Below, in pieces: positions 19,400-61,239 of a stretch of 64,000 bases of DNA. The notes under the pieces are model-generated. The model did not search any database and was not told the DNA's origin. It saw nothing but the letters and a program-made list of their open reading frames with translations. The stretch is from Leucobacter chromiiresistens (lineage in GTDB: Bacteria; Actinomycetota; Actinomycetes; Actinomycetales; Microbacteriaceae): assembly GCF_900102345.1 (NCBI RefSeq), contig NZ_FNKB01000001.1:1860001-1924000 (forward strand), in the 5' to 3' direction. The position numbers were made by a program, and so were the translations under genes. Position 1 is the stretch's first letter. Every line of letters starts with the position of its first letter.

Positions 19400-20899
<1,500 letters not shown>

Positions 20900-24082: not shown

Positions 24083-24852
24083 GTCACCGACCCCAGCTCG
24101 TGGTAGTCGGCGTGCACGGTGTCGCCGCGCTCCACCCACATCGGCTTGGTGAACGACCCCGCGAGCACGATCTCGCCCGCGTCGAGCGACTGCCCGTGCT
24201 GCGCGAGCTTGTTCGCGAGCCAGGCCACGCCGAGCGCGGGGTGCCCGAGCACGGCGCCCGCGACGCCCGAATCCTCGATCGTCTCGTTGCGGTAGAGCAG
24301 CGCCTTCGCCCAGGTGAGATCGATCTCGTCGACCTTCACCGGGCGCCCGCCGAGCACCACGGCGCCCATCGCGGCGTTATCGCTGATCGTGTCGACGATG
24401 GTGCGCCCCTCGAGCTCGAGATGGGAGTTGAGGATCTCGAGGGCGGGCACGACGTACGCGGTCGCATCGAGCACGTCGAAGAGGTTCACCCCCGGGCCCG
24501 AGAGCGGCTTCGCGAGCACGAACGCGAGCTCCACCTCGATGCGCACGTTCGAGAACCGGTCGAACTCGATCACGGCGCCCGACTCGTGCACCATGTCGTC
24601 GTGGATCACGCCGTAGTCGGGCTCCGAGATGCCCGTCGCCACCTGCATCACCTTCGACGTGAGGCCGATCTTGTGCCCGACGAGGCGGGCGCCGGCGGCG
24701 ATGCGGCGATCCGACCACTCCTTCTGGATGGCGTACGAATCCTCGATCACCATCCCGGGGTAGCGCGCGGTGAGTCGGGGGAGGATCGCGCGATCCCTGT
24801 CCGCCTGCACCAGTTCGTCTGCGATGGCTGCAATCTGCGTCTGCTCGAGCAC
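24067..24852 (-). CDS. hpaH: 2-oxo-hept-3-ene-1,7-dioate hydratase
   Basis: Hydratase of 261 aa in the FAH-related 4-oxalocrotonate decarboxylase/hydratase family; it adds water to 2-oxohept-3-enedioate to make HHED. Characteristic stretches are GHKIGLTSKVMQ, the acidic metal-site segment VELAFVLAKPL and VLGHPALGVAWLANKLA. GTG 24852 is chosen because GGAGGT lies just upstream. First gene of the hpaH-hpaI unit, with a perfect operator 32 bp upstream. Confidence 0.92.
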   Translation of the reverse strand: MLEQTQIAAIADELVQADRDRAILPRLTARYPGMVIEDSYAIQKEWSDRRIAAGARLVGHKIGLTSKVMQVATGISEPDYGVIHDDMVHESGAVIEFDRFSNVRIEVELAFVLAKPLSGPGVNLFDVLDATAYVVPALEILNSHLELEGRTIVDTISDNAAMGAVVLGGRPVKVDEIDLTWAKALLYRNETIEDSGVAGAVLGHPALGVAWLANKLAQHGQSLDAGEIVLAGSFTKPMWVERGDTVHADYHELGSVTCRFV

Positions 24853-27395: not shown

Positions 27396-28808
27396 TCAGC
27401 CGCTGATGACGTGCGGCTCCGCGACGGCCTTCAGGCCGGCGACGCCGAACTCCCGGCCGTACCCCGACTGCTTGGCGCCGCCGAACGGAATCATCGGGTG
27501 CAGGCCGCCGTGCGAGTTGATCCAGGTGGTGCCCGCCTGCATGCGCGCCGCCACCTCGAGGGCGCCGGCGCGATCCGACGACCAGACCGAGGAGCCGAGG
27601 CCGAACTCGAGCTCGTTCGCGAGCCGCACGACCTCGTCGAGGTCGGAGTAGCGGATGATGGGCAGCGCCGGCCCGAACTGCTCCTCGACCACGAGATCGT
27701 TGTGCGGATCGATATCGGCGATGAGCGTCGTCGGATAGAAGTTGCCGACCGCCTCGCGATCGGGATCGCCTCCGAGCACCACGCGGGCGCCCGACGCCTT
27801 CGCGGCCTCGACCAGGCGGTCGACCTCGTCGAACTGCGCGCGGTTCTGCAGCGGCCCGAGCACGTTCTTCTCGTCGAGCCCGACGCCCATCGGCACCTGC
27901 GACGCGAACTTCGCCAGCTCGTCGACCACGGCGTCGTAGACGGCGTCGTGCACGTACAAGCGCTTCAGCGCCGCACAGGTCTGGCCGGTGTTGATGAATG
28001 CGCCCCAGAAGAGATCCTCGGCGATCGCCGCCGGGTCGACATCGGGCAGCACGATGCCGGCGTCGTTGCCGCCGAGCTCCAGCGTGAGGCGTGCGACGTT
28101 CGCCGCCGAGGCCTCGATGATGCGCTTGCCCACGGGCGTCGAGCCCGTGAACATGATCTTGCTGATCTTCGGGCTCCGCGTGAGCGCGTCGCCGACGGTG
28201 CGGCCCGGGCCGGCGACGATGTTCAGCACGCCCTCGGGCAGCACCTGGTTCATCACGGCCACCAGTGCGAGCACCGACAGCGAGGTCGTCTCGGCGGGCT
28301 TGATGACGACCGTGTTGCCCATGCGCAGCGACGGGGCGATCTGCCAGATCGAGATCATCATCGGCCAGTTCCACGGGGAGATGGCGCCCACGACGCCGAG
28401 CGGCCGGTAGTGCATCTCGGCGTAGCCCGACTCGTCGTCGACGATCACCTCGACGGGAAGCGGCGTATCGGCCGCGGCCCGCGTCCAGGCGACGCACCCG
28501 CCGACCTCGAATCGGGCGTTCGGCCCGTTCAGCGGCTTGCCCTGCTCGCGCGAGAGCAGTTCGGCGAGCGCCTCCGACGACGCCTCGATCGCATCGGCGG
28601 CGCGGTGGAGGATCGCCTGGCGCTCCGCATCCGGCAGTGCCGCCCAGGCCGGCTGCGCTGCCTCCGCCCGATCGATGGCGGCGTCGAGCGCGTCGAGACC
28701 CTCGACGGGCGCGGTGCCGATCAGCGCGCCGGTCGCCGGGTCGAACACCTCTCGGGTCGTTCCGTGCGAGGGGGTGATGGCAGCGAGCAAGCTGTCGTAC
28801 GTGTTCAT
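27396..28808 (-). CDS. NAD(P)-dependent aldehyde dehydrogenase
   Basis: Aldehyde dehydrogenase of 470 aa. Catalytic residues visible are N147 (SPWNWPM), E244 (LELGGNDAG) and C278 (NTGQTCAALKR). GGAGG precedes ATG 28808. It is divergent from a GMC oxidoreductase gene with a 189-bp shared gap, so the pair may oxidise an alcohol to an aldehyde and then an acid. Substrate is not determined; it is a candidate for oxidising aldehydes made by the phospho-lyase elsewhere in the window. Confidence 0.9.
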   Translation of the reverse strand: MNTYDSLLAAITPSHGTTREVFDPATGALIGTAPVEGLDALDAAIDRAEAAQPAWAALPDAERQAILHRAADAIEASSEALAELLSREQGKPLNGPNARFEVGGCVAWTRAAADTPLPVEVIVDDESGYAEMHYRPLGVVGAISPWNWPMMISIWQIAPSLRMGNTVVIKPAETTSLSVLALVAVMNQVLPEGVLNIVAGPGRTVGDALTRSPKISKIMFTGSTPVGKRIIEASAANVARLTLELGGNDAGIVLPDVDPAAIAEDLFWGAFINTGQTCAALKRLYVHDAVYDAVVDELAKFASQVPMGVGLDEKNVLGPLQNRAQFDEVDRLVEAAKASGARVVLGGDPDREAVGNFYPTTLIADIDPHNDLVVEEQFGPALPIIRYSDLDEVVRLANELEFGLGSSVWSSDRAGALEVAARMQAGTTWINSHGGLHPMIPFGGAKQSGYGREFGVAGLKAVAEPHVISG

Positions 28809-30969: not shown

Positions 30970-32625
30970 TCACGCGGCGGAGGGGCGCGCGTAGACGCGG
31001 CGCCCGGCGAACCAGGTCTCGACGACGGCGGTGCGCACGAGCTCGTGCGCGGGGTGCGCGAACGGGTCGCGGTCGAGCAGCACGAAGTCGGCCGACCTGC
31101 CCGGCGTCAGCGCGCCGGTCTCATCGCCGAGTCCCATCGCCTCGGCGCCGTTGATCGTGAACGCCGCGATGGCCTCTGCGAGGGTGATCGCCTGCTCCGG
31201 CCACAGCGTCCCGGGGTAGTCGCCGCTCGGATCCTCGCGCGTCACCAGACCGTGGATGCCCTCCCAGGCGTTCGGCGAGGGGGAGACGGGCCAGTCGGAG
31301 CCGCCGGCGACCAGGGCTCCGGCGTCGATGAGCGCGCGGTTCGGCTGGATGCGGTCGGCGCGCTCGCGGGGCAGCACCTGGCGGATCGCCTCGACGATCG
31401 GGCCCGGCACCCAGATGAACGGCGAGATGTCGGCCGAGACTCCGAGCTGCGCGAAGCGCGGGATGTCGTCGGGGCGCACGAACTGCCCGTGCGCGATCTG
31501 GTACCGCGGCTCCGTGATGCCCGCCGAGCGCAGCTGCTCGACCGCGTTCAGCACGACGTGCACCGACGCATCGCCCGTGCAGTGGATCTTCGCCGAGAGC
31601 CCCGCATCGGCCACGCGTCGCAGCCAGTCGGCGAGCTCCTCGGGGTCGAGCAGCGTCTCGCCGTGGAAGTGGTCGCCGTGCGCGTCGTCGGGAAGGTAGG
31701 GCTCGAGGAAGGCGCCCGTCCGCGTGGGCGGCACGCCGTCGAGGAAGATCTTCACGAAGTCGGGGCGGTGGTGCTCGGTGCGGAAGCGCTCGCCGTCGAA
31801 GACGAGGTCGTCGCCGACCTCCGCGAACCCGAAGATCTCGTCGTTGATGAGCATCGAGCTCACGACCCACGCGTCGAGGTCGCCGTCGGCGTCGAGCGCG
31901 CGCAGCGCCTCCAGGATGTGGGTCGAGACCCCCGCGTCCTGAAACGCCGTGACCCCGAACGAGTTGAGGATCGCGACGCCTCGCCGAGCCGCCGCGCGCT
32001 CCTGGGCGGGGGTGAGCCCGCCCGCGGAGCTGTGCGCGCGTGCGACGGGGACCCCCGCGGCCTCGAGCAGCACACCGGTGAGCCGAGCGGGATCGGCCGC
32101 GTCGGTGAGCGCACCGGGGTGGCCCGCCGAGATGCCGGCGAGCTCGAGGGCGCGGCTGCTGACCCAGCGGTTGTGGTGCGAATCGTCGGAGAGCATCACG
32201 GGGCGCCCGCCGGCGGCGGCGTCGAGCCGTGCGAGCGCCGCCGCCGTGCTCACGTCGCCCAGGCGGTCGCTCGCCCAGGGGCCGCCCACAACCCACGCGC
32301 CCTCGGGGAGCCCCGCGGCGTGCTCGGCGACGGCGTCGATGATGCCGTCGAGGGAGGCGCCGATCGGAATGCGCAGCTCGAACAGATCCTCCTTGCCCGC
32401 GAGGAAGTGATGGTTGTGCACGTCGACGAGCCCGGGCATCACGAAGCCTCCGGCGAGGTCGCGCACCTCGGTCGACGGTCCCGCGAGCGCGAGCACCTCG
32501 GCGTCGCTGCCGACCGCGGCGATGCGGCCCCCCGACACCGCGATCGCCTCGGCCCACGGCCGCTCGGCGTCGACGGTGTAGATCCGGCCTCCGGTGAGCA
32601 CGAGTTCGGGCGTGGGCAGGGTCAT
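30970..32625 (-). CDS. YtcJ-type amidohydrolase
   Basis: Metal-dependent hydrolase of 551 aa in the amidohydrolase superfamily (amidohydro_3/YtcJ group). It has the metal motif GLVDVHNHHFLAG, the bridging-lysine region PDFVKIFLDGVPP, the histidines in KIHCTGDASVH and IAHGQFV, and the terminal Asp in AGGSDWPVSP. ATG 32625 follows GGAG. Cytoplasmic; hydrolyses an unknown amide or cyclic amide. Operonic with the EthD protein and divergent from an SDR gene. Confidence 0.88.
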   Translation of the reverse strand: MTLPTPELVLTGGRIYTVDAERPWAEAIAVSGGRIAAVGSDAEVLALAGPSTEVRDLAGGFVMPGLVDVHNHHFLAGKEDLFELRIPIGASLDGIIDAVAEHAAGLPEGAWVVGGPWASDRLGDVSTAAALARLDAAAGGRPVMLSDDSHHNRWVSSRALELAGISAGHPGALTDAADPARLTGVLLEAAGVPVARAHSSAGGLTPAQERAAARRGVAILNSFGVTAFQDAGVSTHILEALRALDADGDLDAWVVSSMLINDEIFGFAEVGDDLVFDGERFRTEHHRPDFVKIFLDGVPPTRTGAFLEPYLPDDAHGDHFHGETLLDPEELADWLRRVADAGLSAKIHCTGDASVHVVLNAVEQLRSAGITEPRYQIAHGQFVRPDDIPRFAQLGVSADISPFIWVPGPIVEAIRQVLPRERADRIQPNRALIDAGALVAGGSDWPVSPSPNAWEGIHGLVTREDPSGDYPGTLWPEQAITLAEAIAAFTINGAEAMGLGDETGALTPGRSADFVLLDRDPFAHPAHELVRTAVVETWFAGRRVYARPSAA

Positions 32626-32842
32626 CAGCGACTCCGTTTCGTCAGCGAAGGGCCCGCGGTGCGCGGCGCGGCGGGCCGTCGATGCCAGTCTCGCAGGCGG
32701 GCGCTCGCGGGCGTTGACCGTGCGCGCGGCGGTCTTGTGCGTGCGAGACTGATCGCGGCCGACGGGGCCGCCCCGGGTCAAGCTGGAGCGATCCGGCCGA
32801 CGCCTCGTGCCGGATCCACTCGATGCAGGAGGGATGGCGCGC

Positions 32843-33694
<852 letters not shown>

Positions 33695-33755: not shown

Positions 33756-34451
33756 TCACCCGCCCAGGTACGCCGATCGCAGCAGGTCCGCATCCTCAGC
33801 GAGCACGCCCGCCGGAGCCTGCGCGTGGCTGACCCGTCCGCTCGCGATCACCATCGCCTCATCGGCGATGCCGAGCGCGAGATGGGTGAACTGCTCGACG
33901 AGCAGCACACCCACGCCCGAGGCCGCGATCTGCTGGATCAGCGGCAGCAGCCGCATGAAGACGACGGGCGCCAGCCCGAGCGACATCTCGTCGATGAGCA
34001 GGAAGCTCGGCTTGGCCGCGAACGCCCGGGCGAGCACGACCATCTGCTGCTCCCCGCCCGAGAGCAGCACCGACTGCGCGTCGATGCGCTTCTCCAGCTC
34101 GGGGAACGCCGCGAGCACCTCGGCGAGGGCCGCCTCCGTCTTCGCGGTGAGCATGATGTTCTCGCGCACGGTGAGCGAGGGGAAGATCGCGCGCCCCTGC
34201 TCGATGTGGGCGATGCCGTCGCGCGAGCGCTGCACCCGGCTGCGCTTCGCGATCGACGCGTCGCCGAGCCGGATGTCGCCGGAGGCGTGGGGGATCACGC
34301 CCGACACCGATTCCAGCAGACTCGATTTGCCCGCACCGTTCGGCCCCACGAGCGCGAGGATCTCGCCCGGGCGCACGACGAGGTCGACGTTCGATACGAC
34401 CGGCCCGGCGCCCCGGTGCACCGTCACGTCTCGCAACTGCAGTTCAGTCAT
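33756..34451 (-). CDS. livF: Branched-chain amino acid-type ABC transporter ATP-binding protein (LivF)
   Basis: ABC ATPase of 231 aa. Walker A is GPNGAGKSS, the signature LSGGEQQMV and Walker B FLLIDEMSLGLAP, as in LivF. Its ATG overlaps the upstream livM-livG stop as ATGA, so it is translationally coupled. Last gene of the moaF-livK-livH-livMG-livF operon. The real substrate may not be a branched-chain amino acid. Confidence 0.9.
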   Translation of the reverse strand: MTELQLRDVTVHRGAGPVVSNVDLVVRPGEILALVGPNGAGKSSLLESVSGVIPHASGDIRLGDASIAKRSRVQRSRDGIAHIEQGRAIFPSLTVRENIMLTAKTEAALAEVLAAFPELEKRIDAQSVLLSGGEQQMVVLARAFAAKPSFLLIDEMSLGLAPVVFMRLLPLIQQIAASGVGVLLVEQFTHLALGIADEAMVIASGRVSHAQAPAGVLAEDADLLRSAYLGG

Positions 34452-36208
34452 GAGCTGATCTCCGCATCTCCCATATAGGCCGCGATCACGGCCGGGGTGT
34501 CGAGTACTTCGGCCGTCGGCCCCTGGGCGAGCACCCGCCCGAAGTCGAGCACGGTGAGCTCCGTGCACACCGAGCGCACGAGGTCGAGGTCGTGCTCGAT
34601 GAGCACGATCGCGGTGTCGAAGCGCGAGGGGATCCGGGTCAGGCGATGCCCGAACTGCAGGTGCTCCTCATGCGACAGACCCGCCGCCGGCTCGTCGAGG
34701 ATGAGCAGCCGGGGGCCGGAGAGCACCGCGGCGGCGACCTCGACGAGTCTCCGGGTGCCGACGTCGACCGTCGACAGCGGCGTCTCGGGAGCGGGGCAGC
34801 CGAGGAACGCGAGCGCATCCGCGAGCTCGTCGTGGTCGATCGCGCGGCGCGCCACGAACCGCACGTACGCCTCGACGGTGAGCTGCGGCGGCACCCGATC
34901 CTGCTGGAAGGTGCGCCGCACCCCGCGTCGGGCGCGCCGAGTCGGCGACAGCGCGCTGATGTCGGCGCCGTCGAGCAGCGTGCGCCCGGTGTGCTGGGGG
35001 AGGAACCCCGAGACGGCGTCGACGAAGGTCGACTTGCCCGCTCCGTTCGGGCCGATGAGCCCCATGATCGACCGGGGCCGCACGGCGAGCGATACGTCGT
35101 CGAGCGCCTTGAGCGCACCGAACTGCACGCCGAGGCCCTGCACCTCGAGCACGGGCGGCGCGTCTGCGGGCACGGGCTCGGCCGCCTCGGGCACCGCGAA
35201 GACGTCGAGCACGCTGGTGCCGACCTCGGGCTGCGCCGCGTCGCGCGCCGCGGACCGGGCATCGGACCGCCTGCGGATCGCGCCGCGGATGACCTCACCG
35301 AGGTTCGAACCGCTGGTGAGCGCCTGGATGCCGAGCAGGCCGAACACGACGAAGCCCCAATCCTGCGGCACGCCCCACTTCTTCAAGAGCTCGGGCACCA
35401 CGACCCACAGGATGCCGCCGAAGATCGCCATGTCGATGAGGTAGGCGCCGCTCATCACCGCGAGGATGTACAGGGCGAGCGACTGGATCGGCGAGAAGCT
35501 CGTGGCGAACGGCAGCTGCACCTGGCCCGCGAGCAGCCCGCCCGAGACGCCGCCGAGCGCCGCACTCACCGCGAAGGCGGAGAGCTTCGCCGCCGACACG
35601 CTCCGGCCGACGGCGGCCGTGCCGCGCTCGGAGAAGGCGACCGCCTTCCAACCGCTGCCCATGCGGCTGCGCTGCAGGCCGTGCACGGCGAGCGCGCACA
35701 GCACGGTGACGATGGCCGAGAAGAAGAAGAACTCGCGGTCGCTCGAGAACGCCTCCGGGCGCTGCACGGCGATGCCGTCGGCCGCGCCGGGGAACTGGAT
35801 CTGCACGAGCATCACGTCGAAGGCGGCGGCGAAGCCGAGTGTGACGACGGCGAGGTTGACGCCGCGCAGTCGCAGCGCCGGAAGGCCGATGATGATGCCC
35901 GCGACGCCGGCGGCCGCGCCGCCCGCGACCAGCCACACGACGAAGCCGCCGGGTGCGTCGAGCGTGTTCAGCCAGGCGACCACCCACGCGCCGATCGCGG
36001 CGAACGAGAGCTGCGAGAGCGCGATGATGCCCGCCGAGCCCGTGACGACCCCCAGGCCGAGCACCGCGATGATCGCGGTGAGTGCGCTGATGCCGAGGAA
36101 GACGTAGTAGCCCGACAGGCCCGCGCTGAGCGCCCAGCCCGCGCCGATGCCGACGACCGCGACGAGCAGTGGCAGTGCGGTTCGCAGTCTGCGGTTAACG
36201 AGCGGCAT
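34448..36208 (-). CDS. Fused LivM permease-LivG ATPase of an ABC importer
   Basis: Single 586-aa polypeptide. Residues ~1-315 form a LivM-type permease of about 8-10 membrane segments, with GIIIGLPALRLRGVNLAVVTLGFA matching the LivM signature. After a Pro/Ala linker, residues ~350-586 form a LivG-type ATPase (Walker A GPNGAGKST; Walker B LLILDEPAAGLSHEE; signature degenerate, DVGTRRLVEVA). Such fusions occur in Actinobacteria but most systems keep the two separate. Overlaps livH by 14 bp and livF by 4 bp. Confidence 0.92.
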   Translation of the reverse strand: MPLVNRRLRTALPLLVAVVGIGAGWALSAGLSGYYVFLGISALTAIIAVLGLGVVTGSAGIIALSQLSFAAIGAWVVAWLNTLDAPGGFVVWLVAGGAAAGVAGIIIGLPALRLRGVNLAVVTLGFAAAFDVMLVQIQFPGAADGIAVQRPEAFSSDREFFFFSAIVTVLCALAVHGLQRSRMGSGWKAVAFSERGTAAVGRSVSAAKLSAFAVSAALGGVSGGLLAGQVQLPFATSFSPIQSLALYILAVMSGAYLIDMAIFGGILWVVVPELLKKWGVPQDWGFVVFGLLGIQALTSGSNLGEVIRGAIRRRSDARSAARDAAQPEVGTSVLDVFAVPEAAEPVPADAPPVLEVQGLGVQFGALKALDDVSLAVRPRSIMGLIGPNGAGKSTFVDAVSGFLPQHTGRTLLDGADISALSPTRRARRGVRRTFQQDRVPPQLTVEAYVRFVARRAIDHDELADALAFLGCPAPETPLSTVDVGTRRLVEVAAAVLSGPRLLILDEPAAGLSHEEHLQFGHRLTRIPSRFDTAIVLIEHDLDLVRSVCTELTVLDFGRVLAQGPTAEVLDTPAVIAAYMGDAEISS

Positions 36209-37070
36209 CCCACACCTCCTTTCGCTGCGACCAGAGCAGCAGCACGACGATGAACAGGAACGGGATGAAGTTGCGCACGAACGAGAACGCGGGGATCTGC
36301 GCGACGACGCCGGAGACCACCCCGAGCAGCAGGCCGCCGCCGACGGCGAGGTCGAGCCGGCGGAACCCGCCGAGCAGTGCCGCTGCGGATGCGGGGATGA
36401 TGAGCATGGAGAGGCTGATCGCGTCGTTGGACTGCGACGGCGCGATGACGAGGATCGTGACTGCCGAGATCGCGCCTGTGGCCGCCCAGACGCCGATGGA
36501 GAGGGGCTTCGCCGCGATGCCGATCAGCTCCGCGGTCGTGGGCCGCTCGGAGAGCGCCCGCAGCTGCGTGCCGACCGTGGTTTGCGTCAGCAGCAGGGCG
36601 CAGCCGCCGGCGACTGCGATGGCGAGGGCCACCATGATGATCGTCACCCAGCTCACGACGACGCCGGCGACCGCGAAGGCGGGGCCCGAGAGGATCGGCG
36701 CGAACGGCTGCGGCTTGTTGCCGAAGATGATGAACGAGAGCGAGATGAGCATGAGGAGCGGCGCCACGGTCATGGCCGATCGGAGCGTGACGGAGGCCTC
36801 GGCGAGCCAGGTCGCGGCGATCCATCCGATCGCGCCGTTGAGCGCCGCCCCGATGAGGACGCCGACGATCGTCGCCGCCCAGACGGGCAGCCCCAGCTCG
36901 GCGGCGAACCAGACCGCCGCGAACGCGGCGAACATGCCGGTCGCCGCCTGCGCCAAGTTGACGACGCGCACGAGGCGGCTCATGAGGGTGAGCGTCACCG
37001 CGAGCACGGCGTAGAGCCCGCCCGAGGCGAGGCCCGCGAGCGCGCCCTGGAGCAGGCCGTCGCCGCTCAT
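36195..37070 (-). CDS. livH: ABC transporter permease (LivH type)
   Basis: Inner-membrane permease of 291 aa with about 8 hydrophobic segments (GLASGGLYAVLAVTLTLMSRLVRVVNLAQAATGMFAA is the LivH N-terminus). GGAGG lies 6 nt before ATG 37070. Pairs with the LivM part of the downstream fusion to form the translocation pore. Confidence 0.9.
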   Translation of the reverse strand: MSGDGLLQGALAGLASGGLYAVLAVTLTLMSRLVRVVNLAQAATGMFAAFAAVWFAAELGLPVWAATIVGVLIGAALNGAIGWIAATWLAEASVTLRSAMTVAPLLMLISLSFIIFGNKPQPFAPILSGPAFAVAGVVVSWVTIIMVALAIAVAGGCALLLTQTTVGTQLRALSERPTTAELIGIAAKPLSIGVWAATGAISAVTILVIAPSQSNDAISLSMLIIPASAAALLGGFRRLDLAVGGGLLLGVVSGVVAQIPAFSFVRNFIPFLFIVVLLLWSQRKEVWDAAR

Positions 37071-37223
37071 GCGACGCCTCCGCGCTCGGAGTGGACGAGG
37101 TTGGTCGGACGCATGGGGCTCCTTCGCCGGTGGTGGGGGAACGGATCGGTGCGGGCGCCCGGTGCGACGGCGGAGTCGCATCGGGCACCCGGCCGCCGGC
37201 GACGGGCGCCGGCGGGGCAGCGG

Positions 37224-38402
37224 TCAGCTGCTCGGGATCAGCCAGTCGTCGGCCGACTGCTTCCAGGCGCGGGTGCCCGACTCCAGCACGACCGGCCAGC
37301 CGCCCGGGGTGTACTCCTGCGCCGCGACCTCGTCGAACTGGTAGGGGGCGGCGACCATCGGGTTCTCGATCGGATCCATTCCGTGCAGCGCTTCCGCGAC
37401 GGTCTCGCGGGTGATGTCGCCCTCCATCCCCGAGAGCACCTCCACGAGGTGCGTCGCCGCGAGGTAGCCGCCCTGGCTGAACGAGGTGAGGGCGATGTCG
37501 TTCTCCTCCATCAGCGACTTCTAGTCGGCGTTGATCTCGTTGTCCTCGGTGAAGGGGTAGAACTCGGCGGGCACGTGCACGCCCGCCCCCGTCCAGTCGA
37601 GGGCGGAGGCGAAGTTCTCGCTGTACACGCTGGTGAGGAACAGGAAGGTGACGTCGTCCCACCCCTGCGCCTGCGCCGCCTTCACCTGGCCGATCGCATC
37701 CGGTTCGATGCCGTTCACGGCGATCGCCGAGCAGCCCGCGTTCTTCGCCTTCACGATGTACGGCGTGTAGTCCGAGCCGCCGTAGGGCAGGCTGTCGTCG
37801 ACGAGCAGCGGCTCCTCGCCGGTGATCTCCGTCCACTTCTCGACGCCCGCGAGGTACGAGGGCTTCGTCGATCCCGCGATCTCGAGCAGCACGCAGATGT
37901 CATCGAGACCGAGGTTCTCGGAGCCGTTGAGGAGCGTGAGGGTCATGTCGTTGAACGGGCCCAGATTGGCGGGCGCGATGTTGGGGGAGTCGAAGCAGCC
38001 GGTGTCGACGCCGATTCCGGGCATCGACAGCACGTTCTCCTGGGCGTAGTACTCCTGGTTGATCTCGCACTCGATGAGCGAGGCTCCGCCGACCAGCGCC
38101 ACCACCTCGTCGCTGCCCACGAGCTGTCGGGCGGCCGCTGTCGCGGAGGCGGGGTCGCCCTTGTCGTCGACGGTCGTGTACTCGATCTGGCGGCCGTCGA
38201 TGCCGCCGTCCGCGTTCACGCGGTCGAATACGGCCTGGGCCGCGGCGCTCGCCTCGGGGAACGTCGCCGCCCCGCTCAGGGTGTTGACGGAGCCGAGCTT
38301 GATGGGGGCGCCGTCGCCGCCATCGCCGCCGCCGGCGCAGCCGGTGAGCGCGAGTGCGGCGGTCGCGGCGAGCGCTGCGACCGCGGTGATGCGTCTCTGC
38401 AT
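37224..38402 (-). pseudogene. livK: ABC transporter substrate-binding lipoprotein (LivK type) interrupted by an amber codon
   Basis: A 392-codon frame for a type I periplasmic-binding lipoprotein: signal with lipobox LALTGC (Cys22), then IKLGSVNTLSG and YTTVDDKGDPASA. At codon 294 the frame has TAG (37521-37523, minus strand) between NEINAD and KSLMEEND, where a Tyr codon would fit. The remaining 98 codons stay in frame and keep family features (FSQGGYLAATHLVE; WKQSADDWL). A single base change explains it. Translation would give a 293-aa protein lacking part of the C-terminal lobe. It is either a recent nonsense mutation, a sequencing error or a suppressed stop. GAGAGGA precedes the ATG. Confidence 0.88.
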
Positions 38403-38500: not shown

Positions 38501-39337
38501 TCACACCGGCTGGGCGTCGGGGTAGACCACCCTCCCGAGCGGGATGATGTGCCCGCCGGCGCGCGAGTGCTCCGCCCCGCCGGCGCCCGTGATGCCGAGG
38601 AACACGCCGGTCGTGCGGCGCGCGCTGCCGAGATCGTGCAGCCACACGCTCGCGACCGCGATCCGGAACTCGCGGAAGCAGAAGAGGTAGAGGTCGTCGT
38701 CGAAGCGCCACACGGTCGACAGGTCGGTGTCGCCGTGCCCGCGCTGCACGCCCTCGATGCACTGCCAGGCGTAGCGCTGGCTCGACAGGTACACGTGCTC
38801 GTAGAGGTGGTGCGGGCTGTACCGGTACAGGTTGCGGGTGCCGATCAGATCGCGCGACGGGCCCGGGGCGTCGCCGGTGGGGGCTCCGGCGCCCGTGACC
38901 GCCGACCAGAACGTCTGCCCCACTCGCGGGGCGCCCGCGCTCTCGCGCTCCGCGATGCGGGAGTGCACCACCAGCGCGCGGTGCGTCGTCTCCGAGTAGA
39001 TCACCGTCACCGATTCGCGCGCTCGGGAGACGAGCGGCAGATTGACGAACACGACGTCGTCGCGCACGCGCACCGCATCGACGGGGTCGCGGAGCTCGCC
39101 GCCGAGCCCGCCCGACTCGGCGAGCGGCCCCTCCGCGCTCCACACGGCCTCCTCGCCGTCGAACGCGACGCGCAGCGTCGAGCCGTCGTCGAGCGTCAGC
39201 TCGAGCCGCGCGCCCGAGAGGTCGGCGTTCTCGAGTCGGTAGGTGTCGATGCCCGCTGCGAACTCGTCGTAGCTGCGCCAGTCATCGGCATCCGCCGTCG
39301 TCGGTGCGGTCCGTGCCGGTTCGTGCTGCGAGGTCAT
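38501..39337 (-). CDS. moaF: MoaF-family protein
   Basis: Protein of 278 aa matching MoaF, with an N-terminal lipocalin-like domain (WRSYDEFAAGIDTYRLENADLSGARLEL) and a C-terminal domain (DLIGTRNLYRYSPHHLYEHVYLSSQRYAWQCIEG). In Klebsiella moaF belongs to the monoamine (tyramine) regulon; its molecular function is unknown. Here it heads the liv-type transporter operon and lies downstream of a FeaR-like AraC regulator, supporting a link to aromatic amines. Confidence 0.82.
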   Translation of the reverse strand: MTSQHEPARTAPTTADADDWRSYDEFAAGIDTYRLENADLSGARLELTLDDGSTLRVAFDGEEAVWSAEGPLAESGGLGGELRDPVDAVRVRDDVVFVNLPLVSRARESVTVIYSETTHRALVVHSRIAERESAGAPRVGQTFWSAVTGAGAPTGDAPGPSRDLIGTRNLYRYSPHHLYEHVYLSSQRYAWQCIEGVQRGHGDTDLSTVWRFDDDLYLFCFREFRIAVASVWLHDLGSARRTTGVFLGITGAGGAEHSRAGGHIIPLGRVVYPDAQPV

Positions 39338-39532: not shown

Positions 39533-40495
39533 CTACCTGCGGCGCAGCTCGCTCGGCGAGATCCCGAAGGCGCTCTTGAAGACCCGGCTGAAGTGCGCCG
39601 CATCGGTGAACCCCCACCGCGCCGCGATCATCGACACCGTGCGATCCTGCAGCACCGGATCGCGGAGGTCGGCGCGGCACCGGTCGAGGCGTCGCTCGCG
39701 GATCCACGTCGACACCGTGGTCTCCGCGCCCCGGAACAGCGAGTGGAGGTGGCGCGTGGAGATGTAGTGGGCCGCCGCGATGCTGTTCGGCGACAGATCC
39801 TGATCGCCGAGGTGCAGCTCGATGTAGGCGGTGATCTTCTGGAGCAGGAGCTGGTGGGGGTCGCGCTGGGCCGGGTCGGCGTCGAGGATGCTCGAGAAGA
39901 GCGTGCTCATCAGGTCGAGGCTGGTGTGCGCGAGCTTGGCGCGCACCCGGGAGTCGAGCGAGGCGAGCTGCGCGGGGAACTGCGACAGGAACGCGGTGAC
40001 CACCGGGGCGAGCCCGTTGTGCTCGCGGCCCAGCGACACGGCGGTGAGCTGCTCCGTGAAGGGGATCGGCAGATCGACGCGGTCCTTCGGGAACATCATG
40101 ATGAGGTTGCGGAAGTCCTCGCCGAACAGCAGCGAGTAGGGGCGCGAGGTGTCGTAGACGGAGAGATCGCCCGGGCGCATGACGACCTCGCGGCCGTCCT
40201 GCACGAGGATGCTGCTGCCCGAGAGCAGCAGGCTCACCTTGTAGTACCCGCTGCCGCCGTCCGCGATGGTCTCGGGGGTGCGCTCGACGAGGTGCGGGCG
40301 CGCGGCGACCTCGGTGAAGACCACGTCGTCGGCGTCTGCGGAGATCATGCGCGCGGAGAACGGGCCCGCGTACTCGGTCGAGACACGCAGGGGCACGAAC
40401 GACGACGCGACCATGTCGCGGAACGTGCCCAGGTCGGGCGCCAGCGCGCGAGGTGCGCTGCGGCGCGCATCACCCGATGCGGTTGCGTTCGTCAT
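39533..40495 (-). CDS. AraC family regulator, FeaR-like
   Basis: Regulator of 320 aa. The N-terminal ~200 residues resemble the AraC-binding-like domain of FeaR/NphR-type regulators (YKVSLLLSGSSILVQDGREVVMRPGDLSVYDTSRPY). Two HTH motifs follow at ~220-320 (SIAAAHYISTRHLHSLFRG; IAARWGFTDAAHFSRVFKSAFGISPSELRR). ATG 40495 is preferred: GGAGG lies 8 nt upstream. FeaR controls tyramine/phenylethylamine oxidation in enterobacteria. Adjacent moaF suggests a similar signal. Confidence 0.87.
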   Translation of the reverse strand: MTNATASGDARRSAPRALAPDLGTFRDMVASSFVPLRVSTEYAGPFSARMISADADDVVFTEVAARPHLVERTPETIADGGSGYYKVSLLLSGSSILVQDGREVVMRPGDLSVYDTSRPYSLLFGEDFRNLIMMFPKDRVDLPIPFTEQLTAVSLGREHNGLAPVVTAFLSQFPAQLASLDSRVRAKLAHTSLDLMSTLFSSILDADPAQRDPHQLLLQKITAYIELHLGDQDLSPNSIAAAHYISTRHLHSLFRGAETTVSTWIRERRLDRCRADLRDPVLQDRTVSMIAARWGFTDAAHFSRVFKSAFGISPSELRRR

Positions 40496-40610
40496 GTGTG
40501 ATCCCTCCGACTTCACTGGCGGTTGTCACCGGCGCCCGGGGAGGCGGCACCGGAATCGCGTCGTCGCTCTCGGCGATTCGCGCGGCGATTCACTTCGAGA
40601 GGATACACCT

Positions 40611-41885
40611 TCAGCCGCGCACGACCCCGAGCGATTCCTCGAGGGCGTCGAGCAGGATCGGCAGCTCCGCCGCGCCGAACGCGAGCGGCGGCCGCACCTT
40701 CAGCACGTTCCGGTCGCGCCCGATGCGCGAGATGAGCACCCTTCGCGACTTCATCTCCTCCACGACCCGCACTGCGAGCTCCGGCGCGGGAGCGCCGTCG
40801 ACGGCGAAGTCGAGGCCGAGGAACATGCCGGTGCCCTTCGCGGCGCGCACGAACTCGTGCCGCTCGGCCAGCGCCTCGAGCCGGGCGCGCGCCTGCAGGC
40901 CGAGAACGCGCGCCTGCTCGCGGAGCCCGCGATCCTCCATCTCGAGCAGCACGGCCTCGCCCACCGCTGCCGAGACGGGATTGCCGGCGAAGGTGTTGAA
41001 GAACTCGTTGCGCGATCCGAACGCGTCGAGCACGCCCTCGCTCGTGACGACGGCCGACATCGGGTGCCCATTGCCCATCGGCTTGCCCATCGTCACGAGG
41101 TCGGGTGCGAGCCCCGCGTACTCGTGCCCCCACATGTGACTGCCGGTGCGGCCGAAGCCGCTCTGCACCTCGTCGGCGATGACGAACCCGCCCGCGGCGC
41201 GCACCCGATCGGCGATGCCCGTGAGCAGGCCCCGGGGAACGCGGGGCATGCCCTCCGTGGAGAAGAGCGGATCGAAGAGGCAGGCCGCGACGCCGAACCC
41301 GGCCTCCTGCAGCGAGGCGATCGCCGCATCCACCTGCGCGAGGGCGTCGGCGAGCACGGCGGGCTCGGGCCGCGCGTCGCGGTCGAGGTCGGGGATGCGG
41401 ATCGCGCGCACATGCGCGCCGAGGGGCTCGCGGGTCTCGAGGCCCGTCGTCATCTCGGCGAGCGCGATGGTGGTGCCGTGATAGCTGTAATCGGAGACCA
41501 GCACGCCCGTCGCGCCCGAGAGCTGCCGCGAGATGCGCAGCGCCAGCTCGTTCGCCTCGGAGCCCGAGTTGCCGAAGAACACCCGGTCGAGGTCGCCCGC
41601 GAACGTCGCGAGCAGCCGCTCGGAGTAGTCGATCACGCGCTCGTTGAGGTACCGGGTGTGCACGTTGAGCGTGGCCGCCTGATCGGCGAGCGCGCGCACC
41701 ACGCGCTCGTTCGCGTGCCCCACGTGCGGCACGTTGTTGTACCCGTCGAGGTAGCGATCGCCGGAGGCCTCGGTGAACCAGACGCCCCGCGCCGAGACGA
41801 AGTGCAGCGGCTCGCGGTAGAAGAGCGGGGAGTAGGGGCCGATCGTGCGGTTGCGGCGGGCGATGAGGTCGGCGGTGGAAGACAT
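40611..41885 (-). CDS. Class III aminotransferase-family phospho-lyase (AGXT2L-like)
   Basis: PLP enzyme of 424 aa. The cofactor lysine is K268 in VTMGKPMGNGHP and the pyridine Asp is D238 in IADEVQSGFG. LDGYNNVPHVGH, FGNSGSEANELALR and FFNTFAGNPVSAAVGEAVL closely resemble ethanolamine-phosphate / phosphohydroxylysine phospho-lyases, class III members that eliminate ammonia and phosphate from a phosphorylated amino alcohol to give an aldehyde. An APH-type kinase gene immediately upstream fits this better than a plain transaminase. Ordinary aminotransferase activity remains possible. Confidence 0.82.
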   Translation of the reverse strand: MSSTADLIARRNRTIGPYSPLFYREPLHFVSARGVWFTEASGDRYLDGYNNVPHVGHANERVVRALADQAATLNVHTRYLNERVIDYSERLLATFAGDLDRVFFGNSGSEANELALRISRQLSGATGVLVSDYSYHGTTIALAEMTTGLETREPLGAHVRAIRIPDLDRDARPEPAVLADALAQVDAAIASLQEAGFGVAACLFDPLFSTEGMPRVPRGLLTGIADRVRAAGGFVIADEVQSGFGRTGSHMWGHEYAGLAPDLVTMGKPMGNGHPMSAVVTSEGVLDAFGSRNEFFNTFAGNPVSAAVGEAVLLEMEDRGLREQARVLGLQARARLEALAERHEFVRAAKGTGMFLGLDFAVDGAPAPELAVRVVEEMKSRRVLISRIGRDRNVLKVRPPLAFGAAELPILLDALEESLGVVRG

Positions 41886-41915
41886 GGGGTCCTATCGGGA
41901 TCGAGGGTGCGGCGC

Positions 41916-41940
41916 GGGTGCGGGTGCGGGACTGCGGGGG
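41916..41940 (+). other. G-quadruplex-forming motif between kinase and phospho-lyase genes
   Basis: Four G-runs with loops TGC, TGC and ACTGC lie on the plus strand, the template strand for this operon, 31 bp upstream of the phospho-lyase start. The surrounding 85-bp gap is otherwise G-rich filler. Confidence 0.4.
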
Positions 41941-41970
41941 CGCGGGGCGGTGGGCGGCGGGCGGGTTCGG

Positions 41971-42972
41971 TCAGTCTTCGAGGAGGCGCCGGGCGAGACG
42001 GACCACGTGCGGCAGCACCGTGCCGGCGTGCCACTCGGCGGTGGGCTCGCCGCGACGATCCGCGGACCAGCCGAGGTAGGTGAGCCCGCGGGCGAGGAGG
42101 ATCGCCGGGAACACGTCGTGATCGGCGGCGTCGAGCGGCCGCACGGACTCGTACCCCGCGAAGAGCGCGGCGCGGTACTCCGTCGCGCGCGGGTGCGGGG
42201 TGAAGAAGTAGAGGGCGGTGGCGAGGTCGAACAGGTGCCACCCCGCCGCGAAGTCGTCGAAGTCGATGATCACGAGCCCCGTATCGGTGCGGAGCACGTT
42301 CTCGGGGGTGAGGTCGGCGTGGATCGGGCCGAAGCGATGGGCGGGGGTGCCGTAGGCGTCGAGCCGCGCGCGCACCCGCTCGATCGCCCGGGCGACGAGC
42401 GCGCGATCCTCGCCCGCGAGCTCGGCGAGTCGGAGCGGATCGCCCCAGGCGGGCTCGCTCCCGATCAAACCCTCGAGATCCCAGTCGTCGCGCGGCACCG
42501 CCATCGCGTACCCGGAGCGCTCGGTCGCGGCGTGCAGCTCGCCGAGGAGCCGCCCGAGCCGACTGAAATCGGCGGGGTCGAGGTCGGCGGTGCCCGCCAC
42601 CGCCGAGCGCTCGTCGCCGAACATCCCCGTGTTCGGGATCAGCCGCTGCAGATCGACCTGGTGGGGGCCGCCCGTGCTCGCGTCGCCCACGACGACGAAT
42701 CCGCTGCCGTTCGGCGCGGGGATGACCTCGGGCACCGACACCCCCTCGGCGTGGAGCGCACGCACGAAGTCGAGTTCGCAGGCGAGCTCCGCGTCGGAGT
42801 GGTAGCCGCGCCGATGTACCCGGACGACGTACGCCAGCCCGTCGACGTCGAGGCGGTAGACGAAGTTCTCCCGGTTCTTCAGCAGCACCAGCGGCGCGGC
42901 GGCGTCGAACCCCCACTCCGCGAGGGCAGCGCGGGCGAGGCCCTCGGCGATCTCGAGCGTCACTGCGGGCAT
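41971..42972 (-). CDS. Phosphotransferase (APH/hydroxylysine-kinase-like)
   Basis: Kinase-fold protein of 333 aa in the aminoglycoside phosphotransferase/choline kinase superfamily. The ATP-site region is VLLKNRENFVYRLDVDGLAYVVRVHR, the catalytic loop GPIHADLTPENVL (HxDxxxxN) and the metal motif IIDFDDFAAGWHLFDLA. It is more like small-molecule kinases such as hydroxylysine kinase than antibiotic-resistance enzymes. It precedes the phospho-lyase gene on the same strand, suggesting it phosphorylates the hydroxyl of an amino alcohol before elimination. The divergent TetR and operator imply inducible expression. Confidence 0.83.
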   Translation of the reverse strand: MPAVTLEIAEGLARAALAEWGFDAAAPLVLLKNRENFVYRLDVDGLAYVVRVHRRGYHSDAELACELDFVRALHAEGVSVPEVIPAPNGSGFVVVGDASTGGPHQVDLQRLIPNTGMFGDERSAVAGTADLDPADFSRLGRLLGELHAATERSGYAMAVPRDDWDLEGLIGSEPAWGDPLRLAELAGEDRALVARAIERVRARLDAYGTPAHRFGPIHADLTPENVLRTDTGLVIIDFDDFAAGWHLFDLATALYFFTPHPRATEYRAALFAGYESVRPLDAADHDVFPAILLARGLTYLGWSADRRGEPTAEWHAGTVLPHVVRLARRLLED

Positions 42973-43025
42973 CGGCGTCCTTCCATCGGGGCTCGCGGGG
43001 GGCTCCGACCGCGATCTGTACTCAG

Positions 43026-43054
43026 AGTATAGAAACTATACGCAGCGTTCACAA
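43026..43054 (-). promoter_or_regulatory. Promoter of the kinase/phospho-lyase operon
   Basis: On the minus strand, TTGTGA (43054-43049) and TATACT (43031-43026) are 17 nt apart. The -10 lies inside the TetR-type dyad, so repressor binding would block it. Confidence 0.6.
43027..43041. promoter_or_regulatory. TetR-type operator in the kinase/tetR gap
   Basis: GTATAG-AAA-CTATAC is a perfect 6-bp inverted repeat with 3-bp spacer, overlapping the kinase -10 and lying 6 bp upstream of the tetR -35. AT-rich sequence stands out from the local GC-rich background. Confidence 0.7.
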
Positions 43055-43077
43055 GTGGGGTCCGGGCTTTGTAGACT
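43048..43077 (+). promoter_or_regulatory. Promoter of the tetR gene (leaderless)
   Basis: TTCACA (43048-43053) and TAGACT (43072-43077) are 18 nt apart. Initiation ~8 nt further on would fall at the GTG start (43085), giving a leaderless mRNA. Its -35 overlaps the -35 of the opposite promoter. Confidence 0.55.
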
Positions 43078-43084
43078 GGTGCCC

Positions 43085-43720
43085 GTGACCCCAGCCTCGC
43101 CCGCATCGAACGCGCGCCGGCCGGCGACCGGCGGTCCCATCCCGCGCGAGCGCCGCCAGGAACGCACCCGCCGCGACCTCGTCGACGCCGTGCTCGCGAT
43201 CATCGCCGAGCGCGGCCTCGCCGACACCACCATCGAGCGCGTGTCCGAGCTATCGGGCATCTCGCGGGGCACCGTGTACGCGCACTACCCGGGCGGGCGC
43301 GATGCGCTGCTCCGCGACGCGTACGCGCGTCTCGGGCGCGAGCTCGTGGAGCGCACTCGCGCCGCCGCCGATGCGGCCGACGCGTGGCGCGAACGGCTGT
43401 CGGCGCACGCACGATCCCTCTTCGACCTCGCCGCCGACTCGCGGCTCGGGCACTTCTACAACGTCTCGGGGCCCACGCTCGTCGTCGACGGCGCCGAGCG
43501 CGGCATCGGGTCGGGGGCCAGCGCGTCGATGATCGCCGATGCGCTCCGCGAGGCGCAGAGCCGCGGCGAGGTGGCGGCCGACGTCGATGCGCATGCGACC
43601 GCCCTGCTGCTCGTCGGCGCGCTCCGCGAATCGGCGATCCGCATCGCCTCGGCGCCCGCGGAGTCGGACGCGTGCTTCGCCGCGTTCGCCCGCCTCGTCG
43701 ACGGTCTCGCCGCTCGCTGA
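43085..43720 (+). CDS. TetR family regulator of the kinase/phospho-lyase operon
   Basis: TetR-type repressor of 211 aa. The HTH lies at ~32-75 (VLAIIAERGLADTTIERVSELSGISRGTVYAHYPGG). The start is taken as GTG 43085, placed at the predicted transcription start after TAGACT; GTG 43055 or 43079 would overlap the promoter. The remaining helical domain binds an unknown ligand, plausibly the amino alcohol or its product. Confidence 0.86.
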   Translation: MTPASPASNARRPATGGPIPRERRQERTRRDLVDAVLAIIAERGLADTTIERVSELSGISRGTVYAHYPGGRDALLRDAYARLGRELVERTRAAADAADAWRERLSAHARSLFDLAADSRLGHFYNVSGPTLVVDGAERGIGSGASASMIADALREAQSRGEVAADVDAHATALLLVGALRESAIRIASAPAESDACFAAFARLVDGLAAR

Positions 43721-46929: not shown

Positions 46930-47058
46930 CCCCGCTTTACCGACCCCGCTCCGCCGACCCGCCCGCCGACCCCGGCCTACGCCTCCACTCCCGCCACCGC
47001 TCGTGCAGTACCGCCGCCGATCATCGACGATCCGCCGGCGTCACCGAAAGGACCCGAC

Positions 47059-48702: not shown

Positions 48703-48730
48703 TCCGGCGGCGCGGCGCGGAAGGAACGAC

Positions 48731-52777: not shown

Positions 52778-52925
52778 CCGGCGCACCCCCCTTCCGCCCC
52801 ACGGCCCCGACCACGACCGCCCGCCGCCACCGCCGGCCCGCTCGCCACCACCCGCCACTATCACCGCCCGCCCGCTCGCCACGACCGCCCGCCCGCTCTC
52901 GCGCGCAGGCGAGAGAAGAGATGAC

Positions 52926-58229: not shown

Positions 58230-58394
58230 CACAGGTCCTTCGAGAGGGTATACGAGATACAGGGAACCGTGTATGTCTCGCCGGGCGGCGTCGCCCTGGC
58301 AGCAGCGCCCCTTTTTCGAGCGCCTTCCCCGGCAGGGCCGGATGAGACCCGACCGAGCTGGACTCCTTCATCTTAGTGATCTGCCGAGCCGCCG

Positions 58395-59331: not shown

Positions 59332-61239
59332 GTGCAGTTCCATCACCACGGGTACGTCTCGACCGATCCACGCATCCTCCCGGCAGCGGGTGTGGGCATC
59401 GACCGGCCGTCAGACCTGCCCGAACAGATCGACGTGCTGATCGTCGGCTCCGGGCCCGCCGGCATCGTCACCGCCGCGCAGCTCGCGCAGTTCCCGAACG
59501 TCGTGACCCGCGTCGTCGAGCGCCGTGAGGGGCGACTGGTGCTCGGGCAGGCCGACGGCATCCAGGCCCGCAGCGTGGAGACCTTCCAGGCGTTCGGCTT
59601 CGCCCGGCAGATCACGGAGGAGGCCTACCAGATCACGGAGACCGACTTCTGGAGCCCCGATCCCGAGAACCCGGCCGAGATCGTGCGCAGCTCCGTCACT
59701 CCCGACGATCCGAAGGGCATCAGCGAGTTCCCGCACCTGATCGTGAACCAGGCCCGCGTCATCGACTACTTCGCCGAGTACGCCCGACGCGCCCCGGCTC
59801 GCGGTGACATCGACTACGGCTACGAGTTCGTCGACCTGGAGGTGACCGGCGAGGGGGAGTACCCGGTGACGGTTACGCTCCGCAAGATCTCGGGGTTCAC
59901 GGGCGCCGGCATCAACGCGGCGAAGGTGAACGACGACGAGGGCGAAGCGGTGACCGTGCGCGCCAAGTACGTGGTCGGCGCGGACGGCGCACGGTCCTCG
60001 GTGCGCCGCTCGATCGGCGGATCGCTCGCGGGGTCGTCGTCGCTGCATGCGTGGGGCGTGATGGACGTGCTCGCCGTCACCGACTTCCCCGACTACCGCA
60101 AGAAGTGCATCATCCACTCGGCGGCCGGCAGCATCCTGCACATCCCGCGCGAGGGCAGCCACCTCGTGCGCATCTACGTCGATCTCGGGGAGACCGACGA
60201 GCACGATGCGGGGCAGGTGCGCGGCACCTCGCTCGACGAGATCATCGCCCGGGCGAACGCGATCCTCCACCCGTACACGCTCGACGTGCGCGATGTGCCC
60301 TGGCACAGCGTGTACGAGGTGGCGCATCGCCTCACCGACCGGTTCGACGACGCGGCGACCTCGCCCGACGGCAAGGGCCGCGTCTTCCTGATGGGCGACG
60401 CCTGCCACACGCACAGCGCGAAGGCGGGGCAGGGCATGAACGTGTCGATGCAGGACGGGTGGAATCTCGGCTGGAAGCTCGGGTACGTGCTCGAGGGGCG
60501 CAGCCCGGAGTCGCTGCTCAAGACCTACTCCGACGAGCGCTGGCTGACGTCGAAGAACCTCATCGACTTCGACCACCAGTGGTCGACGCTGATGGCGAAG
60601 AAGCCCGAGGAGTTCTCCTCGCCCGACGAAGTGGCGGAGTTCTACGTGCAGACCGCCGAGTTCCCGGCCGGCTTCATGACGCAGTACACCAATCCCATGC
60701 TCATCGGCACGGACGCGCATCAGGAGCTCGCGAGCGGGTTCACGCTCGGCAAGCGCTTCAAGTCGGTGCTGACGACGCGGGTGACGGATGCGGTGGACGT
60801 GCACCTCGGCCACCATCACCGCGCCGACGGGCGCTTCCGCATCTACGCGTTCGCCGACGCCGACGGCGCGCGCCTCGACGCGTGGGCGCGGTGGATGCTG
60901 GAGGACGCGGAGTCGCCGCTCGCCCGCTTCACCCCGTCGGGCGCAGACATCGACGCCGTGTTCGACGTGAAGGCCGTGTTCCAGCAGCACCACCACGATG
61001 TCGATATCGCGCGGGTCTCCCGGTTGTTCCTGCCCGCCTCCGGCCCGTTCGGGCTCACGGACTACGAGAAGATCTACGCGGCGCATCCGAGCGACGACAT
61101 CTTCGCGGCGCGCGGCATCAGCCGCGAGGGCGCCGTGGTGGTCGTGCGGCCCGACCAGTACGTCTCCGCGATCTTCCCGTTGACGGCGACGAGCGAGCTC
61201 GGAGCGTACCTGAGCGGTATATTCCTGCCTCAGCCCTGA
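59332..61239 (+). CDS. FAD-dependent aromatic monooxygenase (3-hydroxybenzoate 4-monooxygenase-like)
   Basis: Flavoprotein hydroxylase of 635 aa of the phenol hydroxylase/PHBH group. The FAD/NAD motifs are VLIVGSGPAG, VVGADGARSSVRR and GDACHTHSAKAGQGMN. A C-terminal thioredoxin-like domain (~460-630) ends VVVRPDQYVSAIFPL. The start MQFH..G, LGQADGIQARSVE, AWGVMDVLAVTDFPD and NLGWKLGYVL closely match Comamonas MobA, which turns 3-hydroxybenzoate into protocatechuate. GTG start with GAGGAG 6 nt upstream. Overlaps the convergent permease gene by 10 bp. Another hydroxyaromatic substrate is possible. Confidence 0.85.
   Translation: MQFHHHGYVSTDPRILPAAGVGIDRPSDLPEQIDVLIVGSGPAGIVTAAQLAQFPNVVTRVVERREGRLVLGQADGIQARSVETFQAFGFARQITEEAYQITETDFWSPDPENPAEIVRSSVTPDDPKGISEFPHLIVNQARVIDYFAEYARRAPARGDIDYGYEFVDLEVTGEGEYPVTVTLRKISGFTGAGINAAKVNDDEGEAVTVRAKYVVGADGARSSVRRSIGGSLAGSSSLHAWGVMDVLAVTDFPDYRKKCIIHSAAGSILHIPREGSHLVRIYVDLGETDEHDAGQVRGTSLDEIIARANAILHPYTLDVRDVPWHSVYEVAHRLTDRFDDAATSPDGKGRVFLMGDACHTHSAKAGQGMNVSMQDGWNLGWKLGYVLEGRSPESLLKTYSDERWLTSKNLIDFDHQWSTLMAKKPEEFSSPDEVAEFYVQTAEFPAGFMTQYTNPMLIGTDAHQELASGFTLGKRFKSVLTTRVTDAVDVHLGHHHRADGRFRIYAFADADGARLDAWARWMLEDAESPLARFTPSGADIDAVFDVKAVFQQHHHDVDIARVSRLFLPASGPFGLTDYEKIYAAHPSDDIFAARGISREGAVVVVRPDQYVSAIFPLTATSELGAYLSGIFLPQP

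Follow-up and report, generated by a model that had tools for sequence, protein, structure and literature searches.

What is a small-molecule kinase encoded head to tail with a pyridoxal phosphate (PLP) enzyme doing in an actinobacterium that also carries genes for homoprotocatechuate breakdown? The question is posed by a 64,000-nucleotide stretch of the Leucobacter chromiiresistens genome (contig NZ_FNKB01000001.1, positions 1,860,001 to 1,924,000; this whole stretch is the window below), which has a G+C content of 71% and comes from an assembly of 3.2 Mb in two contigs. We find that the kinase and a PLP enzyme of phospho-lyase type form a conserved pair that keeps company with arylacetate genes across genomes, and consider that the pair probably opens the catabolism of primary β-hydroxyarylethylamines (of the octopamine, noradrenaline or phenylethanolamine type), which would pass through an arylacetaldehyde into the homoprotocatechuate pathway.

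A conserved kinase–lyase pair and its presumed operator

Kinase and lyase are encoded by separate genes, the kinase upstream and 85 bp between the two (coordinates in Table 1). Gene calls, Pfam and PDB matches all bear out what a sequence-only reading of the window had described here, namely an APH kinase gene directly upstream of an AGXT2L-like class III PLP gene. The two best PDB matches of the lyase are both phospholyases (5G4I, E 9.1e-158; human ETNPPL, 6TOR, E 4.5e-84) and stand well above other class III enzymes, the third match being a racemase at only E 3.5e-40; a GKPMGNGHP motif is common to the window lyase, 5G4I and ETNPPL. The kinase has the HxDxxxxN and IDFD motifs of the APH fold, and its best solved relative is 6ef6 (E 1e-39), deposited under the title aminoglycoside phosphotransferase. 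By analogy with characterized relatives, the kinase would phosphorylate an amino alcohol and the lyase would release phosphate and ammonia; ethanolamine-phosphate phospho-lyase is named in a passage of PMC8154272 as a class III PLP enzyme of such chemistry.

Sixty-seven related loci were collected, of which 44 (L018–L061, lyase at least 55% identical) were used for context, with flanks of up to 10 kb (some contigs end sooner), while 23 (L062–L084, lyase below 50%) were excluded from the context counts. Kinase identity divides the 44 into 29 class I loci (at least 57%; Leucobacter, Brevibacterium and Cryobacterium) and 15 class II loci (at most 46%). Across the window and these loci, the PLP lysine of the lyase (K268) and kinase residues H218, D220, N225, D237 and D239 are invariant (45/45), and pairwise kinase and lyase distances are correlated with r = 0.937, a value reached in none of 2000 permutations, although shared descent of whole genomes explains part of it. 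The window lyase is 96% identical to that of L. chromiiresistens NS354 (371 residues, up to the contig end). Its own genome contains ten matches to it at E 0.001, the second best only 36% identical; this paralogue (L085:4359-7376, minus strand), ~0.69 Mb from the pair, is a 1005-residue kinase–lyase fusion that passes the PRK06149 model (1122.7 bits, cut-off 973). Assignment of the window lyase to the fused PRK06148/PRK06149 family was rejected (413 bits against 1128 and 324 against 973, respectively).

The intergenic palindrome CTATACTCNGAGTATAG, presumed to be the TetR operator, matches only once in the whole window when up to three mismatches are allowed (0.01 matches expected), and the same search returned 31 matches in total across the 44 loci. 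A TetR gene resembling that of the window is present in 25 of the 29 class I and 11 of the 15 class II loci; the operator stands 5′ of the kinase in every one of these 25 class I loci and in none of the four that have no such gene (L036, L037, L040, L043). The remaining matches lie 5′ of the kinase in L061 (one), of moaF in L025 and L035 (two), and of a permease gene in L057–L059 (three). Because the palindrome is conserved in the TetR–kinase intergenic region, the pair looks inducible, an impression that the sequence-only reading had also formed and that the divergent TetR gene and this predicted operator support.

Immediately 3′ of the lyase in 26 of the 29 class I loci lies an AraC-family regulator gene, whose product we name FeaR-like rather than FeaR because that of the window scores below the cut-off of the FeaR model (Table 1); each of 30 aligned FeaR-like proteins nevertheless matches FeaR, and no other AraC model, at E 1e-20.

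Arylacetate genes accompany the pair across genomes and on some plasmids

The homoprotocatechuate dioxygenase gene hpaD was sought in the genomes that contain 37 of the 44 loci and is present in 35 of them, the exceptions being Mycobacterium sp. Root135 and a metagenome-assembled genome of 2.6 Mb. In a survey of 299 genomes of the same family (kinase threshold E 1e-50, hpaD E 1e-80), the kinase was found in nine and hpaD in 107, with hpaD in 9/9 kinase-bearers versus 98/290 others (Fisher p 7.7e-5, a value that ignores kinship, six of the nine kinase-bearers belonging to one genus). The co-occurrence of kinase, phospho-lyase and hpa genes, proposed beforehand as a check, thus held. Within the genus (54 genomes, kinase threshold E 1e-60) the kinase is present in 36 and hpaD in 47; among the 48 genomes that are at least 90% complete, hpaD accompanies 31/31 kinase-bearers versus 13/17 others (p 0.012). 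Kinase and hpaD share a contig in 25 of 33 cases, spaced 6–83 kb, which may in large part reflect inherited gene order.

Some loci bring the two gene sets together directly. Where an hpa gene (55% identity) falls inside the flanks (L036, L040, L043, L056, L058, L059), the three Brevibacterium loci L036, L040 and L043 have a flavin adenine dinucleotide (FAD) hydroxylase, kinase, lyase and FeaR gene running in one direction and hpaG-like, hpaE, hpaD, hpaH and hpaI genes in the opposite one; in L040 the hydroxylase stop overlaps the GTG start of the kinase by four bases.

Plasmid records were searched by tblastn with the lyase (381 records) and the kinase (93 records), and annotated regions were examined for 15 lyase-selected records (two from Rhizobium, otherwise one per genus) and six kinase-selected ones, mostly with 10 kb flanks; two further regions that carry no annotation were excluded from the counts, and the gene tables of the collection are incomplete. 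The best match lies on pTC2 of Paenarthrobacter aurescens TC1, and the encoded protein is the crystallized phospholyase 5G4I itself (446/446 residues identical; also 5G4J, ABM10818.1), 60.8% identical to the window lyase over 98%. Around it are genes for a kinase (46.7% identical to that of the window), a TetR protein, a permease, a short-chain dehydrogenase (SDR), feaB, hpaE, hpaH, hpaI, a PheA/TfdB-type FAD monooxygenase and an AraC regulator. The TC1 locus thus has a TetR gene, an SDR, a permease, an AraC regulator and hpaE/H/I nearby as the window does, but is plasmid-borne and has its kinase and lyase genes divergent around the TetR gene.

Arylacetate genes occur in nine of the 15 lyase-selected regions (hpa/hpc genes in seven, a paa operon in one, a tyramine oxidase in one), and distant relatives, several of them Pseudomonadota, have the lyase beside hpaD/E or a paa operon. 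In each of the six negative lyase-selected regions a GntR gene lies no more than 4 kb from the pair; a tblastn search (E 1e-8) with the kinase of the window detected no kinase in these six and a kinase in 9/9 positive regions. The kinase-selected regions include the microcompartment locus of Rhodococcus jostii RHA1 and another in which an ethanolamine permease gene adjoins the kinase.

Lyase trees were built by a quick method with Shimodaira–Hasegawa-like approximate likelihood ratio (SH-aLRT) support only. In the later tree, which adds the six kinase-selected regions and drops four distant rows, the window and the nine positive plasmid regions fall in one branch (support 91), and the microcompartment and ethanolamine-permease loci have lyases that group with the GntR lyases (support 96), apart from the window branch; the L105 row, a very long branch, is uninformative. 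In the earlier tree, without kinase-selected rows, the aromatic-linked group forms one branch (support 97), several of its loci being labelled aromatic by FeaR alone.

Three further features of the plasmid records were seen. In Sinorhizobium fredii NXT3 (L109:1380-6564) the pair lies near genes for an electron-transfer flavoprotein, FolD and formyltetrahydrofolate deformylase, neighbours that might point to an oxidative loss of an N-methyl group. Directly 5′ of the lyase in L090, L098, L100, L103 and L104 (Rhizobium, Shinella, Agrobacterium and Roseateles), three genes recur: one for a further class III aminotransferase-like protein, one for a HAD hydrolase and a Tm-1-like gene. Forty-two Klebsiella plasmid records match the lyase at below 60% identity.

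Catabolic genes elsewhere in the window

Table 1. Coordinates of the pair, its presumed operator and other genes of the window (bits are scores against NCBIfam models, with their cut-offs).
Feature	Position	Strand	Evidence and remarks
HpaD, homoprotocatechuate 2,3-dioxygenase	18220..19362	-	426 bits, cut-off 321
HpaE dehydrogenase	19400..20899	-	667 bits, cut-off 638
HpaG-like fumarylacetoacetate (FAA)-hydrolase/RraA fusion	21608..23164	-	PRK12764 795 bits, cut-off 444; HpaG 126/276
HpaI-like aldolase	23267..24139	-	309 bits, cut-off 369
HpaH-like hydratase	24067..24852	-	345.5 bits, cut-off 351.5; start estimated
Aldehyde dehydrogenase, candidate third step	27396..28808	-	Pfam Aldedh E 1.9e-142; under every NCBIfam cut-off shown
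Amidohydrolase	30970..32625	-	Pfam Amidohydro_3 E 3.3e-86; start estimated
SDR	32807..33694	+	Pfam adh_short_C2 E 2.6e-54
LivH, LivM-LivG, LivF transporter genes, presumed uptake	33756..37181	-	
LivK-type binding protein gene	37224..38402	-	Pfam Peripla_BP_6 E 4.4e-39; one in-frame stop
MoaF protein	38501..39337	-	Pfam MoaF_C E 3.7e-36, MoaF E 6e-16
FeaR-like AraC-family regulator	39533..40516	-	FeaR model 151 bits, cut-off 199
Class III PLP phospho-lyase, presumed second step	40611..41885	-	424 aa; Pfam Aminotran_3 E 2.5e-61
APH-fold small-molecule kinase, presumed first step	41971..42972	-	333 aa; Pfam APH E 6.1e-24
Palindrome CTATACTCNGAGTATAG, presumed TetR operator	43016..43032	.	one mismatch; between TetR and kinase genes
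Divergent TetR-family regulator	43055..43720	+	Pfam TetR_N E 1.1e-7
FAD aromatic hydroxylase, candidate homoprotocatechuate producer	59332..61239	+	2dkh (3-hydroxybenzoate hydroxylase) E 3.6e-179

The hpaDEGHI set had looked complete to the sequence-only reading. HpaD and HpaE do pass their model cut-offs, but HpaH and HpaI fall short of theirs, and the supposed hpaG encodes an FAA-hydrolase/RraA fusion. The FeaR-like regulator, MoaF and aldehyde dehydrogenases named in the same reading are all present, the aldehyde dehydrogenases numbering two, one of which is HpaE.

As to where homoprotocatechuate would come from, two familiar sources were rejected. The HpaB hydroxylase (PF03241) has no gene in the whole genome, nor in 30 of the 37 relatives' genomes (the other seven have one), and a copper amine oxidase that could feed the window hpa genes is likewise missing from the genome. 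The TynA/FeaB/FeaR system of Escherichia coli, in which FeaR controls tynA (amine oxidase) and is an activator of feaB (phenylacetaldehyde dehydrogenase) according to a passage of PMC4640556, would share FeaR-type control and an arylacetaldehyde intermediate with the window, but differs in its use of a copper amine oxidase. A gene cluster with one scanned member, a primary-amine oxidase, occurs in the flanks of 6/44 loci. The FAD hydroxylase of the window, which resembles 3-hydroxybenzoate hydroxylase, might accept hydroxyphenylacetates; with a catecholic amine, noradrenaline for example, no hydroxylase step would be needed.

On the same strand, 3′ of the pair, follow genes for the FeaR-like regulator, MoaF, a LivKHMGF-type transporter, the amidohydrolase and an EthD protein. 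The LivK-type gene has a single in-frame stop (37521-37523, minus strand) in an otherwise intact frame, and full-length relatives are present in 16 loci. The SDR recurs (at least 55% identity) in the flanks of 19/29 class I and 4/15 class II loci, and may interconvert amino alcohol and amino ketone. On the other side of the pair, a second catabolic-looking run (44735-54680, plus strand) comprises genes for an S15-type peptidase, two DUF3237 proteins, a family 5 ABC transporter and an amidohydrolase; the peptidase, DUF3237 and transporter genes also adjoin the pair in L018, L021, L027 and L060. A thiamine diphosphate (TPP)-enzyme gene (56361-58232, minus strand), found in the flanks of 8/44 loci, adjoins an IclR regulator gene and the FAD hydroxylase gene.

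A probable route from amino alcohol to arylacetate, and its rivals

From gene content and order, families, motifs, operator conservation and co-occurrence, we infer the following reactions, substrate and regulator ligands. The kinase would use ATP to phosphorylate the benzylic hydroxyl of a β-hydroxyarylethylamine; the lyase would form an aldimine with the amine and eliminate phosphate, and the remaining enamine would hydrolyse to ammonia and an arylacetaldehyde, which an aldehyde dehydrogenase would oxidize to the arylacetate. This acid would proceed to homoprotocatechuate ring cleavage directly if it is a catechol, and otherwise after the FAD hydroxylase. Control would be exerted by the TetR protein on its 17-base operator and by the FeaR-like activator, possibly as an aldehyde sensor. 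Such a substrate is preferred because an arylacetaldehyde product would account for all of the FeaR, hpa and paa neighbours. A primary amine should be required by a PLP lyase, and synephrine and adrenaline would therefore first have to lose their N-methyl group. The synephrine dehydratase of Arthrobacter synephrinum likewise takes a β-hydroxyarylethylamine to 4-hydroxyphenylacetaldehyde, but does so directly and on an N-methyl amine. Of the chain from octopamine or noradrenaline into the pathway that had been suggested for the window, the arylacetate link is supported by co-occurrence in genomes and by clustering in Brevibacterium, P. aurescens TC1 and several Pseudomonadota; the substrate stays a proposal.

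Several observations weigh against this route. The window hpa genes are 16–23 kb from the pair, with other genes between, and no copy of the presumed operator (at up to three mismatches) lies at these genes or at the hydroxylase gene; among the 44 loci only six have an hpa gene inside the flanks, and FeaR directly follows the lyase in only 2/15 class II loci. Over all 54 genomes of the genus, the association is not significant (hpaD in 33/36 kinase-bearers versus 14/18 others, p 0.16), the three kinase-bearers that do not have hpaD being genomes only 72–80% complete, and in one of the nine kinase-bearers of the family (G047) a distance of 1.9 Mb separates hpaD from the kinase, on a contig of 2.9 Mb. 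On plasmids, 12 of the 21 annotated regions have no arylacetate gene, three such regions (L106, L108, L109) sit within the lyase branch of the window, and none of the six kinase-selected regions has one, so that the arylacetate link covers part of the kinase family and not all of it.

The alternative that fares best, though we think it unlikely, is an aliphatic amino alcohol (ethanolamine, 1-amino-2-propanol or similar), which would be converted via its phosphate ester to acetaldehyde or propionaldehyde, the arylacetate genes then being a functionally unconnected catabolic island. It draws on the closest solved relatives: 6ef6 is, we assume, the 1-amino-2-propanol kinase of Mycobacterium smegmatis, and 5G4I has been reported active on phosphoethanolamine, also the substrate of ETNPPL, which shares the class III fold family and the motif given above but is an enzyme of lipid metabolism outside any catabolic operon. 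A passage of PMC8007038 cites a paper on an M. smegmatis 1-amino-2-propanol kinase, without the code 6ef6. The kinase family also extends to the microcompartment and ethanolamine-permease loci, and an SDR accompanies the pair as it does in RMM aminoacetone-utilization microcompartment loci, which hold GntR, SDR, permease and phosphotransferase genes according to a passage of PMC4207490. The RHA1 locus of this kind has a homologous kinase (32.7% identical); it differs in its shell proteins and GntR regulators, and shell genes (PF00936) are found neither in the window's own genome nor in any of the 37 relatives' genomes (controls positive in 2/14), on which ground RMM membership was rejected. 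Ethanolamine, aminopropanol and hydroxylysine, the simpler substrates that had been considered for this pair, look less likely because the microcompartment and ethanolamine-permease loci have their lyases in the other, GntR branch and because the genome holds a separate fused kinase–lyase; an aliphatic substrate would also leave the FeaR, hpa and paa neighbours unexplained.

Another kind of aromatic amino alcohol appears improbable. An arylserine would give an arylpyruvate, which the nearby TPP enzyme might decarboxylate, and an arylpropanolamine would give an arylacetone; the recurrence of the TPP-enzyme gene in the flanks fits the former, but that enzyme is nearest to acetolactate-synthase-like enzymes, at low similarity, and class III PLP enzymes mostly act on terminal amines. 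That the PLP enzyme works as an ordinary aminotransferase beside an unrelated kinase, as the annotation of its relatives and the preponderance of aminotransferases in class III would have it, is highly improbable given the drop in PDB matches after the two phospholyases, the motif shared with them and an adjacent kinase that co-diverges with the lyase.

Taken as an interpretation of sequences, the comparative support for the link to arylacetate breakdown is strong, with a β-hydroxyarylethylamine as the proposed substrate. The chemistry is known; the openly licensed PMC papers searched contained no description of the pathway (none on octopamine or synephrine was found, and such a bacterial pathway was absent among the top listings of looser searches). 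We hold evenly balanced the wider proposal that a phosphorylation-dependent pathway for these amines is widespread in Actinomycetota and Pseudomonadota, feeding the homoprotocatechuate or the phenylacetyl-CoA pathway, with 5G4I as a member whose natural substrate would be an O-phosphorylated β-hydroxyarylethylamine. If this is true, bacteria would degrade amine hormones of invertebrates and vertebrates, and related plant amines, via a kinase/phospho-lyase pair that forms an ATP-driven counterpart to the amine oxidases; the pair would offer a gene marker for amine degradation in soil and animal-associated communities, and the crystallized enzyme 5G4I would gain a natural role.

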